Below, in pieces: positions 37,773 through 42,556 of a DNA stretch of 64,000 nucleotides (position 1 is its first letter; each line of letters starts with the position of its first letter). The notes under the pieces are model-generated. The model was not told the DNA's origin. It worked only from the letters and a program-made list of their open reading frames with translations, and did no database searches. The translations under genes and the position numbers were made by a program. Where the stretch lies: positions 1 to 64,000 of the forward strand of contig JARGOP010000009.1 in NCBI GenBank assembly GCA_029233965.1, given 5' to 3'. This DNA comes from Verrucomicrobiales bacterium. GTDB lineage: Bacteria; Verrucomicrobiota; Verrucomicrobiia; Verrucomicrobiales; DEV007.

Positions 37773-39323
37773 TCAATCCGCCCCATTGCGGCCGAGATTC
37801 CACATCACGTCCATAGCCTCGGGCTCGGGAACGTTGAGCGGGCGGACGATGCGGAAGCCAAGCCAGTGGGCGTCGGTGTGATACCAGATTGATTTCGGCA
37901 GCTGGGGGTCCTGCACCTTCCAGTTCTCGTCAGAGAAAATCCGGCGGGCGGAACGGAGCTCCTCAGGAGGGTCATACCAGGAACCGCCCCGGGCGACGCG
38001 GGGATAGAGTGTGGCCGGAATTTCCAGAGGATTTTCGGTGACCCCGGTCCGCTTGCTGTAGGCGTCTTCGATGTATTGATCGAGAACCCACTCCATGACG
38101 TTTCCATGCATGTCGTAAAGACCGAAGGGATTCGGCTTCTTCGTGCCGACTTTCTCGTAACCGACCCGGATCTGCTCGGGGTCCATCACGGCGTAGTCGG
38201 CGAGTTCAGATTCAGGGACCGAAAAAGGACCTGTCGTTCCGGCGCGGCAGGCGAACTCCCATTCGGCTTCGGTAGGAAGGCGATAGTAGTGGCCGGTCTG
38301 GGCGCTGAGCCACTGGCAGAACTTGTTTGCCGCATGCTGCGTCATGCAGATGGCAGGGTAGCCGTCGGTGCCCATGCCGAAACTCATCTCGGTGTAAGGA
38401 GTGGTTGGGCTGGAAACAACGTCGAGGGGCTCGGCGTCTGCCGGGATGTTTTCCGGGGATCCATCCTTGTTCCGGGCTACTCCGGTGATCATGAAGGGCT
38501 CATACATGTTCCAGGTCACCTCAAACTTGCCCATCCAGAAAGGCTCGACCTTCACCTTGTGTTGAGGCCCTTCGTTGTCGAAGCGTCCTGCTTCGTTGTC
38601 AGGGCTCCCCATGAGGAATTCCCCCCCGGGGATCGGAACCATATCGTATTTCACGCCGGTCTTTGGAATGGTGCCGGTGTATTCCTTCATCTCATCGACC
38701 GTTTTCTCTTTCGATGTTTCAAGAATCTTTTCCCGGATCGTTTTCACGAGGCTGAGGTTGTCGCCGAGAGCGTCTTCATCCACGGTCACACCGCCGAGGG
38801 TGACACCTTCAGGCCAGTCTGCGCCCTGTTCGGCCCAGAGGTTGAGCATCTCGATCTGCTTCGCATTGAAAGGGCCGCCCTTCATGAGAAGCTGGCGGAC
38901 ATTTTGAAAGGTCACGCGCGGCTTCTCGGTGAGAACCACTCCTTCGGGCCACTCAGCTCCCTGGTCGATCCAGTCTTTGATGATCTGCTGCTGATACTCG
39001 TTGAGCGGCTTTTTCGGAGGCATCGCTTCGGGATCCTCGGGATCGTCGAGGTGAATCGTCGTCATCCAGTAGACCGGACTGTCATTGCCGTCCCCGGGCC
39101 GGATGACATCCTCGCCGTAGCTTTCACCGCCGATGAAGCTGGCTTCTTTCGTGGTCATGTCATACTCGGCCCCTTCGGATTTGGCATCCTCAGGATTGTG
39201 ACACTGGATGCAGGCCCCTTCGAAGAGCGGCTTGATCTGGGTCATGAAGTCCACTTCAGCGGCCGCTGCAGGGAGGGCGCTGAGTGAGGCGAGGGTCAAA
39301 ATGGAGAGAAAATTTCTTCGCAT
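37773..39323 (-). CDS. Planctomycete-type cytochrome c with SUMF1/FGE-like domain
   Basis: A 516-residue secreted protein. A signal peptide (1-22) precedes a haem-binding domain with CIQCH (38-42) in FEGACIQCHNPEDAKSEG, followed by YQQQIIKDWIDQGAEWPEGV, a planctomycete cytochrome signature that recurs as LNLWAEQGADWPEGV. From about residue 205 to the end it is SUMF1/FGE-like: MVPIPGGEFLMGSPDNEAGR, QHAANKFCQWLSAQTGHYYRLPTEAEWEFACRAGT, NPFGLYDMHGNVMEWV, RVARGGSWYDPPEELRSARR, WLGFRIVRP. The region that holds the catalytic cysteines of true FGE lacks them, so it is unlikely to activate the sulfatases. I take it as a redox or ligand-binding protein. Confidence 0.85.
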   Translation of the reverse strand: MRRNFLSILTLASLSALPAAAAEVDFMTQIKPLFEGACIQCHNPEDAKSEGAEYDMTTKEASFIGGESYGEDVIRPGDGNDSPVYWMTTIHLDDPEDPEAMPPKKPLNEYQQQIIKDWIDQGAEWPEGVVLTEKPRVTFQNVRQLLMKGGPFNAKQIEMLNLWAEQGADWPEGVTLGGVTVDEDALGDNLSLVKTIREKILETSKEKTVDEMKEYTGTIPKTGVKYDMVPIPGGEFLMGSPDNEAGRFDNEGPQHKVKVEPFWMGKFEVTWNMYEPFMITGVARNKDGSPENIPADAEPLDVVSSPTTPYTEMSFGMGTDGYPAICMTQHAANKFCQWLSAQTGHYYRLPTEAEWEFACRAGTTGPFSVPESELADYAVMDPEQIRVGYEKVGTKKPNPFGLYDMHGNVMEWVLDQYIEDAYSKRTGVTENPLEIPATLYPRVARGGSWYDPPEELRSARRIFSDENWKVQDPQLPKSIWYHTDAHWLGFRIVRPLNVPEPEAMDVMWNLGRNGAD

Positions 39324-39486: not shown

Positions 39487-40716
39487 GTGTTTCAACGAGT
39501 CGCTGCAGTTTTCCTCATTCTTTTCCCCGGTTTCGTCGCCGGGGAAGATCCCATCCGTGGTTTCGTAAGTGTCGAACCTTTCGAGCTCCGTCTCGAAGCG
39601 ATCGTTGAAGTGGCTCCGTTCCGGGAAGCATGGCGTCTCGAAGAGGGAGCGATTGATTTATCGGAGCGGCAGGCTGTGCTCGACAATATCGCGACGCTGT
39701 TCGAATCGGGCGTGAATCTGTCTGCTCCGGGAAAAGAAATCACCTACACGGGCCGATCAATTCGTTTTATCGTACCGGATCCGGAAACGGGGTATGTCAC
39801 CGATGAACGCCCGGAAATTCCGCTCGAGGAGGCTCTCGTGGGAATCACTCTGTCAGCGGACGTTCGCGGCATTCGTGAACTCCGGGGCGAATGGCTCTGG
39901 TTTGCGCCGGGACAGGAAAAGCTGGTCCTTGAAATTGCAAGCCGGGGTAAGCCTTCGGCCCGGCTTCTGCGGCCGAAAGAGGAGCGGTTCGACTGGAAGC
40001 TTGAGGAGGAGATCGCGATGCCGGGGATGCTCAAGGTTCCTGAGGTGGAGCGTTTTCAAAGTCAGCCCCTTCGTCATCTCATCTTTCTCGGGCTCGTAAT
40101 GCTCGGAGCCGCTGCGGTGGTGGTGATTCGCCTGAAACAAAAATCCCCTGCGTGGGTCGGGTGGCTCACCGTGGGAGGGATTGCCTGTTGCGTGACTTCG
40201 TTTCAGGTTCGGATTGATCGCGTTGAGCCGCTCGATGATGCCGCGATGGAGGAGTTGGTCTATGCCTCGCTCAGAAATATGTATCATGCTTTCGATTTCA
40301 GGGACGAGTCATCGATTTACGATATTCTGGAGAAAACCGTGACGGGACCGCTTCTGGAAGAGGTCTATCTTGAGATTCGCCAGTCTCTCGAGCTGGAGAG
40401 TCTTGGCGGACCGAGGGTGAAGGTCTACGAGATCGCCTTGCGTGACTGGAGAAGGAGCGAAGAGGCCCTCCCCGGAGATGTCAGGGCCGATGATTTACTC
40501 CGTGTTCTCGCCAACTGGGCGACGATCGGGGAGGTGACTCACTGGGGGCACACCCACGAACGGACCAACCGATATGAAGCTGAGGTGACTTTTCTGGCCG
40601 TGGAGGAGCAATGGAAAGTCTCGGAGTTGGAGCTTCTCAATGAAGAAAGGGTTCAGAAAATTTCCCGCCGGGAAGCAATTCCCGTCGAAGGTGATACACT
40701 TCCTGAGTCACCATGA
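39487..40716 (+). CDS. Uncharacterised membrane protein coupled to an ABC transporter
   Basis: A 409-residue protein I do not recognise. It has a signal peptide (1-19), an extracytoplasmic region of about 175 residues rich in beta-strand, two hydrophobic helices (about 196-217 and 222-240), and a second soluble domain of about 170 residues. That domain contains YASLRNMYHAFDFRDESSIYDILEKTV, LLEEVYLEIRQSLELESLGGPRVKV, and VTHWGHTHERTNRYEAEVTFLAVEEQWKV, which look like a compact conserved fold. The stop overlaps the ATPase start by 4 bases (ATGA), and the ATPase in turn overlaps the permease. It is probably the accessory or substrate-handling subunit of that transporter. Confidence 0.8.
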   Translation: MFQRVAAVFLILFPGFVAGEDPIRGFVSVEPFELRLEAIVEVAPFREAWRLEEGAIDLSERQAVLDNIATLFESGVNLSAPGKEITYTGRSIRFIVPDPETGYVTDERPEIPLEEALVGITLSADVRGIRELRGEWLWFAPGQEKLVLEIASRGKPSARLLRPKEERFDWKLEEEIAMPGMLKVPEVERFQSQPLRHLIFLGLVMLGAAAVVVIRLKQKSPAWVGWLTVGGIACCVTSFQVRIDRVEPLDDAAMEELVYASLRNMYHAFDFRDESSIYDILEKTVTGPLLEEVYLEIRQSLELESLGGPRVKVYEIALRDWRRSEEALPGDVRADDLLRVLANWATIGEVTHWGHTHERTNRYEAEVTFLAVEEQWKVSELELLNEERVQKISRREAIPVEGDTLPESP

Positions 40717-41381
40717 TTTCCTGCCAGGATTTGAAATTCAGCTACCCGGGAGAATCCTTTGATCTCCGGGTGAAATCGTTGGCGGTGGAGAAGGGGGAAT
40801 CCGTCGCCCTCGTCGGCCCGAGCGGCTGTGGAAAGACGACCCTCCTGAATCTCATTGCGGGGATTCTCCTGCCGGGCGAAGGCTCTGTTGAGGTTGAGGA
40901 CGTTCGGGTGAACGGGATGAATCTCACTCAGCGGCAGGCATTTCGACTCGGGAACATGGGCATGGTTCCGCAGAACTTCGAACTTCTCGACTACCTGACA
41001 GTGGCGGAGAATATTCTCACTCCGATCCGGCTCTCGGGGAGAGGCATCGTTCAGAGTGAACACCGCGAGCGGTTGGCGGAACTCGCGGGGAGGACCGGGA
41101 TGAGCGATTTGCTGCAAAAATTCCCAACCGGACTTTCGCAGGGGGAGCGGCAACGAACGGCATTGTGTCGCGGGCTTGTCGGAAACCCGGCGCTGATTCT
41201 TGCGGACGAACCGACTGGAAATCTCGATCCCGGGAACCAGGATCGCATTGTCAGCCTTCTCCTCGAAGAAGCGAGGAGGCTTGAAGCTTCGGTCCTCATG
41301 ATCACGCATGAACCCGGCCTGCTCGGCCGTTTTGACAGGGTTGTCGATTTGGTGGAATTGAGGAAAGGAGCCGATTCATGA
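40713..41381 (+). CDS. ABC transporter ATP-binding protein (LolD/MacB-like)
   Basis: A 222-residue ATPase. It has Walker A GPSGCGKTT (35-43), Q-loop MVPQNFELLDYLTVAENI, signature LSQGERQR, Walker B LILADEPTGNLDPGN and switch His in MITHEP. This set is typical of the LolD/MacB/FtsE group that powers lipoprotein release, efflux or envelope remodelling without moving a substrate through the membrane. It is coupled by 4-base ATGA overlaps to the upstream membrane protein gene and the downstream permease gene. Confidence 0.92.
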   Translation: MISCQDLKFSYPGESFDLRVKSLAVEKGESVALVGPSGCGKTTLLNLIAGILLPGEGSVEVEDVRVNGMNLTQRQAFRLGNMGMVPQNFELLDYLTVAENILTPIRLSGRGIVQSEHRERLAELAGRTGMSDLLQKFPTGLSQGERQRTALCRGLVGNPALILADEPTGNLDPGNQDRIVSLLLEEARRLEASVLMITHEPGLLGRFDRVVDLVELRKGADS

Positions 41382-42556
41382 ACCGGGCAGGGCTTCTTCA
41401 TCTTGGACTGCGTTATCTGGCCGGCAACCGGGCGAAGACATCGCTTCTCGTCGCGGCTTTTACTCTTGTCTGGCTCCTTCCCTCAGCGATTGGGATACTC
41501 GTCGGGAAAGTGGAAACTCATCTGCGGTCGCGTGCGATGGACACCCCTCTGGTGCTCGGCAGTGCGGGGAGCGCCCTCGAATTGACCTTCAACGCTCTCC
41601 ATTTTACGAAACCGGAGATTGCGACATTGACCTACCGGGATGCTCTCGATGTTTCAGAGACCGGACTGGGAGAGGCGATCCCGGTCTATGCGCGCTTCAC
41701 TGCGGGGGACAATCGGATTGTCGGGACGACCTTTGATTATTTTCGCTTCCGTGATTTCAGCTTTCAGGAAGGCCGGGCCTTCCTTCGCATGGGGGAATGT
41801 GTGATTGGTTCCGCAGTTGCGACGGCGAACGGCATTCGTGAGGGCGACGCCATCATTTCCTCTCCCGAGACTCTCTTTGATCTGGCGGGAGTGTACCCAC
41901 TGCGTATGACGGTTTGCGGGATTCTCGATCCAACCGGGACGCCGGATGATGATGCGGTTTTCGTCGATCTGAAAACAACCTGGGTCATCGAGGGCCTCGG
42001 TCACGGGCACAAAAAGGCGGCGGAAGCAACAGAGGAAGAGCGGCTCACGACCGACGAGGGAGGGGTGGTTCGATTGAATGCCTCGGTCCTTGAGTATAAT
42101 GAGATCACGCCGGAGACGATCGACAGCTTCCATTTTCATGGCGAACCCGAAGACAATCCGATCACCGCTGCAATTGTGATTCCTGCCGGAGTGAAGGAGC
42201 AGGCCCTGTTGAAAGGACGATACACTTCGTCCAAGTCGCTTCAGCTCGTGACCCCGACGGAAGAGATGGATGAACTGTTCGCCACTGTTTTCAGCGTGCA
42301 GCGGGCTGTGATCTGGATGCTCATCATCGTGGGGGGCGCGACCCTGGCGCTGGGGGCATTGACCTTCATGTTGTCATACCGCCTCAGGCACCGCGAGTTT
42401 GTCTCGCTGCGTCACCTCGGGGCATCACCGGGGATGTTAAGGGGCCTTATCGCATTCGAGGCGGTCTTCGTTCTCGCCGCGAGCCTCCTCCTGAGCGGCG
42501 GGCTGCTTCTCCTGATCGAATGGATCGCTCCGATCATGATCGAGCGATATTGGTGA
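41378..42556 (+). CDS. ABC transporter permease, FtsX/LolE-like
   Basis: A 392-residue permease with the MacB/FtsX topology: a first helix at about 23-45 (SLLVAAFTLVWLLPSAIGILVG), a large extracytoplasmic domain (about 50-300), then three helices in the C-terminal 100 residues (VIWMLIIVGGATLALGALTFMLS, LRGLIAFEAVFVLAASLLLSGGLLLLIEW). The FtsX-domain mark is RHREFVSLRHLGASPGMLRGLIAFE. It starts inside the ATPase gene (ATGA overlap), so the two subunits are translationally coupled. It probably forms a homodimer. The substrate is unknown. Confidence 0.88.
   Translation: MNRAGLLHLGLRYLAGNRAKTSLLVAAFTLVWLLPSAIGILVGKVETHLRSRAMDTPLVLGSAGSALELTFNALHFTKPEIATLTYRDALDVSETGLGEAIPVYARFTAGDNRIVGTTFDYFRFRDFSFQEGRAFLRMGECVIGSAVATANGIREGDAIISSPETLFDLAGVYPLRMTVCGILDPTGTPDDDAVFVDLKTTWVIEGLGHGHKKAAEATEEERLTTDEGGVVRLNASVLEYNEITPETIDSFHFHGEPEDNPITAAIVIPAGVKEQALLKGRYTSSKSLQLVTPTEEMDELFATVFSVQRAVIWMLIIVGGATLALGALTFMLSYRLRHREFVSLRHLGASPGMLRGLIAFEAVFVLAASLLLSGGLLLLIEWIAPIMIERYW

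Follow-up and report, generated by a model that had tools for sequence, protein, structure and literature searches.

The locus lies in a 64,000-nt window, that is, the whole stretch of DNA that was analysed (Verrucomicrobiales bacterium, assembly GCA_029233965.1, contig JARGOP010000009.1, positions 1-64,000, forward strand). Three open reading frames, all on the + strand like every feature of the cassette given below, encode proteins of 409 (39487-40716), 222 (40713-41381) and 392 amino acids (41378-42556): an unrecognised protein, an ABC ATPase and a permease, here called M, A and P, respectively. As the original prediction stated, the genes are joined by two ATGA overlaps, one between M and the ATPase (40713-40716) and one between the ATPase and the permease (41378-41381). 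These overlaps are not universal, and some relatives show short gaps instead. The divergent upstream gene (37773-39323, - strand), which according to our own reading of its sequence encodes a planctomycete-type cytochrome/SUMF1-like protein, is conserved beside the cassette in the genus; conservation of this gene and of the downstream genes was found at the genus level only.

The ATPase (PF00005, 1.1e-30) carries Walker A (GPSGCGKT), signature (LSQGE) and Walker B (LILADEPT) motifs and is of the LolD/FtsE/MacB type, with scores under every equivalog cut-off of NCBIfam. The permease matched MacB_PCD (2.5e-9) and came close to the FtsX model with 24.6 bits against a cut-off of 25.5. A P family profile, built from 69 permeases, was used to score ZrgB and the FtsX-superfamily members of E. 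coli. ZrgB from a Burkholderiales MAG that carries a complete zrg operon (G149) reached 101.9 bits (E 1.6e-27), whereas the E. coli proteins YbbP, MacB, LolE, FtsX and LolC obtained 26, 19, 18.6, 11 and 8.3 bits, respectively. P and ZrgB have in common the blocks around 'VGA.GS' and 'GI..TGTP.D', and we classify P as a ZrgB-type FtsX/MacB permease. All 69 permeases (69/69) share two invariant histidine pairs in the periplasmic part, HGH (H209 and H211; 42002-42010) and HxH (H252 and H254; 42131-42139), both of which are absent at the aligned positions in ZrgB and in the E. coli proteins. FtsX-type permeases encoded on Rhizobium, Paracoccus and Thermus plasmids were matched by the profile at 91-99 bits. 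They represent another ZrgB-like branch (loci L162, L163 and L164), with the gene order alkaline phosphatase, small unknown protein (90-158 amino acids), ABC ATPase and FtsX permease, and with a His-rich insert in the Paracoccus and Rhizobium permeases.

M, which starts with GTG and has a signal peptide, gave no Pfam or NCBIfam match at E<1, in agreement with its initial description as unrecognised, and thus represents a protein family held by neither database. A Pfam scan of 38 M homologues returned sub-threshold noise only, including DUF6702 at 0.029, and searches of the PDB by sequence with the M profile and the permease gave no significant match. An AlphaFold model of M (pLDDT 91, pTM 0.82) reproduced the predicted layout of an N-terminal helix, a beta-rich domain, two helices and a compact C-terminal domain. 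The beta-rich domain (residues 19-170; 39541-39996) has the fold of ZrgA: it superimposed on V. cholerae ZrgA (8f1b_F) with a VIA Z of 11.9 over 128 aligned residues (rmsd 3.7; Foldseek E 2.1e-6), on PA4063 (7ahw) with a VIA Z of 10.8, and on the Cu-bound Ang-1 domain of HupE/UreJ-2 (9gce) with a Z of 9.5 (Foldseek E 2.9e-6). This domain of M contains no histidine whatsoever, so that it shares the ZrgA fold but not the ZrgA zinc site. The two transmembrane helices (residues 198-219 and 223-240; 40078-40206), assigned from AlphaFold/DSSP and from their hydrophobic sequence, would insert in the membrane as a hairpin and, together with the signal peptide, should leave both domains of M facing the periplasm, making M a predicted membrane-anchored periplasmic protein.

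The C-terminal domain of M (residues 246-394; 40222-40668) is NTF2/VirB8-like, with VIA Z values of 11.5 (5cnl), 11.3 (CagV, 6iqt) and 10.9 (ARC6, 5had). It includes the motif HWGHTHER (H352, H355, H357 and R359; 40540-40563), a putative metal site in which, in the AlphaFold model, the three histidines sit where two long strands meet. In an alignment of 49 homologues collected by whole-protein similarity, where the motif had not been used (A1), each of the three histidines was kept in 48 proteins and the whole triad in 47; both M proteins that break the triad come from genomes where neither P nor Z, the ZnuA-like protein described below, was found (G040 and G077). In two further alignments (A2 and A3) the loci had been gathered with the pattern HWGHxHxR[TVL]N, and histidine invariance there is by construction; the evidence for the histidines of M is that of A1 and of the form HAAHVHER, found in the M protein of a Paracoccus plasmid, which has only 166 amino acids and consists of a helix and the C-terminal domain. 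Outside Verrucomicrobiota, M usually has about 580 amino acids and an additional N-terminal domain of about 190 residues, and a separate model of one such distant 580-residue homologue again recovered the ZrgA-fold and NTF2/VirB8-like matches.

When 84,980 species genomes were scanned for HWGHxHxR[TVL]N, tblastn confirmed 323 loci, and the 80 best of these were taken further. According to the record titles, these 80 include Myxococcota, Proteobacteria, Planctomycetes, Gemmatimonadetes, Acidobacteria, Bacteroidetes, Dadabacteria and Sumerlaeota. The M-ATPase-permease order was present in all 26 informative loci of the type found in the genus of the window, and of 51 other informative loci, 40 had A and P in the same order within the available flank of M; the distance between M and the ATPase gene did not exceed 120 nt in 56 of 62 loci within the 80-locus set. 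M homologues therefore mostly adjoin the ATPase and permease genes, and their grouping goes beyond chance. Of the fixed new complex originally proposed, the unrecognised subunit and the fixed gene order stood, and the three proteins probably form one functional unit; the restriction to Verrucomicrobiota did not stand, since the family occurs in the phyla named above and in others. Among 96 relatives, M homologues were found in 61, and only 8 of 288 sampled Verrucomicrobiota genomes held the system, which is thus broad and patchy and no invention of this phylum. We found no description of an M-A-P operon in the literature searched.

In a Methylomagnum plasmid, the gene after M-A-P carries the annotation of a zinc ABC substrate-binding protein; a TonB receptor and NikR are encoded close by, and CopC is encoded upstream. 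When this protein and its counterpart from the Paracoccus plasmid, both PF01297 proteins, were used as queries, a ZnuA-like protein (Z) proved to be encoded next to P in every one of the 19 loci from outside Verrucomicrobiota whose sequence extends 1.5 kb or more past that gene. No other neighbour gene recurred beside the operons across phyla. On the Paracoccus liaowanqingii plasmid, M-A-P-Z comes directly after type II secretion genes, with a DUF4198 gene on either side. A gene cluster found beside unlinked M homologues in Verrucomicrobiaceae was considered as a partner and rejected, its sequence being read as an unrelated Gfo/Idh/MocA oxidoreductase.

Z is not adjacent to M-A-P in the genus of the window. 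The window genome encodes three ZnuA-type proteins, two of which share operons with ABC-3 permeases; the third is an orphan, with no permease or ATPase gene nearby, on a contig outside the window (C65, 2771-3673). This orphan reached 394 bits with the Z profile, a value that is partly by construction as the orphan is among the 19 rows of the profile, compared with 73 and 53 bits for the two ordinary ZnuA proteins of the same genome. It shares the Z motif and 32-44% identity with other Z proteins, and is the likely functional partner of the cassette in the window. Across the 96 relatives, M, P and Z co-occurred (Fisher P values of 4e-21, 6e-12 and 1e-15, which ignore shared ancestry), including cases where the genes are unlinked: Verrucomicrobiaceae hold M, P and Z apart, and some genomes have P and Z together and M elsewhere. 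In several MAGs of the genus with 91-93% completeness, M and P were present and Z was not detected, which suggests that some carriers may do without Z.

Relative to E. coli ZnuA, His60 was replaced in all 29 Z proteins, His143 was kept in 4 and His207 in 27, and a new motif, HxHG..HxH, was present in 28; this motif is absent from E. coli ZnuA and from the other two ZnuA proteins of the window organism. Judging from these replacements, the metal site of Z seems to have been rebuilt, and with two of the three canonical histidines lost, Z may have a metal complex, or something different, as its ligand. No Zur-like palindrome was found upstream of M or Z, in a lineage whose Zur box is itself a candidate only: TGCAAT..ATTGCA palindromes located in the intergenic stretch (L169, 6600-7060, on contig C38) between a znuABC-type operon and the divergent gene for a His-rich outer-membrane-like protein. 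The second ZnuA/ABC-3 operon of this genome is preceded by TATCTTGA-N4-TCAAGATA (L168, 7600-7640, on contig C113), which resembles an MntR/DtxR-type operator.

The ZrgB-type permease, the ZrgA-fold domain of M and the ZnuA-like Z all point to metal handling, and we are fairly confident that the system is involved in it. The cassette is probably a variant, so far uncharacterised, of the ZrgBC-type metal ABC systems, namely an ATP-driven relay that would pass a transition metal among Z, M and P in the periplasm. Two copies of the permease, as a homodimer, would combine with the ATPase into a motor of the MacB/FtsX fold (type VII), and M would sit beside it in the inner membrane with its ZrgA-fold and NTF2-like domains toward the periplasm. 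Z, whose gene adjoins that of the permease in most phyla and is an orphan in the window genome, would deliver the metal or a metal complex; the HxxHxH of the NTF2-like domain of M and, in P, both invariant HxH pairs would serve as transfer sites, and hydrolysis of ATP in the cytosol would drive the periplasmic conformational changes by which the metal is passed between Z, M and the permease. Zn2+ would be the most likely metal, with Co, Ni or Cu as possible ones. Because of Z, our analysis slightly favours uptake as the net direction. The histidine-free ZrgA-fold domain of M, the failure to find Zur-like palindromes upstream of M or Z, the lost ligands of Z and the MAGs in which M and P occurred and Z was not detected count against this metal-handling reading. 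The narrower proposal that a MacB-fold machine, loaded by a ZnuA-derived protein with a rebuilt site and working via M, moves or relays metal in a mode distinct from those of both ZnuABC and MacAB is put forward as a possible rather than a probable one.

The direction of ZrgBC-type systems is disputed. V. cholerae ZrgABC is needed for zinc-limited growth and has been read as a zinc importer (PMC9820375), and the Zur-regulated PA4063-PA4066 system of P. aeruginosa, where the loss of PA4065 leads to higher intracellular cobalt and pyochelin, was taken to export cobalt-pyochelin as a MacB-type transporter (PMC11481552). If the latter model applied here, the cassette would export a metal, either by itself or complexed with a metallophore, and M and Z would act as adaptors in the periplasm. 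The homology of P to ZrgB and the P. aeruginosa phenotype are consistent with such a direction, as is the fact that transporters of the MacB fold generally work as exporters or as mechanotransmitters. We nevertheless consider export somewhat unlikely, given the zinc-limited growth supported by the V. cholerae zrg genes, the lack of a MacA-like adaptor or TolC gene adjacent to the cassette within the window, and the identity of the usual partner Z as a ZnuA-type protein (cluster A-I). To our knowledge, binding proteins of this type serve import in all characterised cases. Type VII ABC proteins are known from the literature to perform mechanical work in the periplasm, M has two periplasmic domains, and its conserved histidines, like those of the permease, are expected to face that compartment; the system could thus load a periplasmic metalloenzyme or signal metal status, no metal crossing the inner membrane. 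Since the operons of different phyla have no recurrent metalloenzyme gene as a neighbour, we regard this reading as doubtful, a little more so than export.

The role in lipoprotein or lipid trafficking or in envelope remodelling that had originally been suggested, in which the ATPase and permease would extract envelope components and M would hand them on, did not hold up and is now improbable. It had in its favour the LolD/FtsE-like ATPase, the MacB_PCD and FtsX-like parts of the permease and the resemblance of the NTF2-like domain of M to VirB8-type envelope domains. These are outweighed by the permease profile, which gave 8-19 bits on E. coli LolC, LolE, MacB and FtsX versus 102 on ZrgB, and by the ZrgA-fold domain in M, the invariant histidines of the permease, the conserved ones of M and the presence of a ZnuA-like fourth gene in the operon. 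An accidental neighbourhood at the level of the genus, devoid of functional link, might be supposed as the flanking region is likewise conserved in the genus; with the same gene order in many phyla and co-occurrence of the genes even when unlinked, it is the least probable reading.

The ATP-driven metal relay preferred here would bear on how ZrgBC-type proteins work, as their fold argues against a simple importer and a sister system across many phyla pairs a permease of the ZrgB kind with a ZnuA-type protein. The invariant or nearly invariant histidines of the permease, M and Z offer concrete sites that can be mutated in order to probe metal handling by mechanotransmission ABC proteins.

Compared with known systems, the cassette resembles LolCDE and MacAB in its ATPase and in the FtsX superfamily of its permease. 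The difference from both that had been claimed at the outset was borne out: there is a single 392-residue permease, which lacks an NCBIfam lolCE match and for whose profile LolC, LolE and MacB are at noise level, ATPase and permease are separate genes unlike in MacB, M did not match any MacA-type model, and the neighbouring gene clusters show no recurrent adaptor. With ZnuABC and AztABC (cluster A-I) the system shares the PF01297 (ZnuA) family of Z; however, P is of the FtsX/MacB type, with MacB_PCD and FtsX matches only, and not of the ABC-3 type. Of the canonical histidines, Z has lost the first and in most cases the second, and it has HxHG..HxH. The N-terminal domain of M is similar to Ang-1 of HupE/UreJ-2 (9GCE, PMC12537917) in its fold and in being a membrane-tethered periplasmic domain, Ang-1 being metal-binding, but Ang-1 binds Cu via an N-terminal histidine that M lacks and is fused to a secondary permease (PMC12537917).

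The closest likeness is to ZrgABCDE and PA4063-PA4066, with a permease of the same superfamily (24.7% identity of P to a ZrgB, besides the profile match given above), a separate ATPase (33.6% identity of A to the ZrgC that accompanies it) and a first gene for a periplasmic protein with a ZrgA-fold domain. Unlike ZrgA, M is predicted to be membrane-anchored, has the extra NTF2-like domain, shows no PF10986 sequence match and lacks both the zinc ligands of ZrgA (N-terminal HxH and Glu66) and its His-rich loop. The ZnuA-like Z stands in place of the small ZrgD and ZrgE, and the HGH and HxH of P align to no histidine pairs in ZrgB. PF10986 was detected in none of 59 Verrucomicrobiota genomes; the control set gave no match either, but the model did match in G149. 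In this Burkholderiales MAG, M-A-P-Z exists alongside a zrgA-type operon that has two ZrgE-like genes (L128 and L172), so that neither system simply replaces the other. The cassette would work like ZrgBC but, judged by the absence in M of the ZrgA sequence family and zinc ligands, both of which were tested, it should not be filed as ZrgABC.
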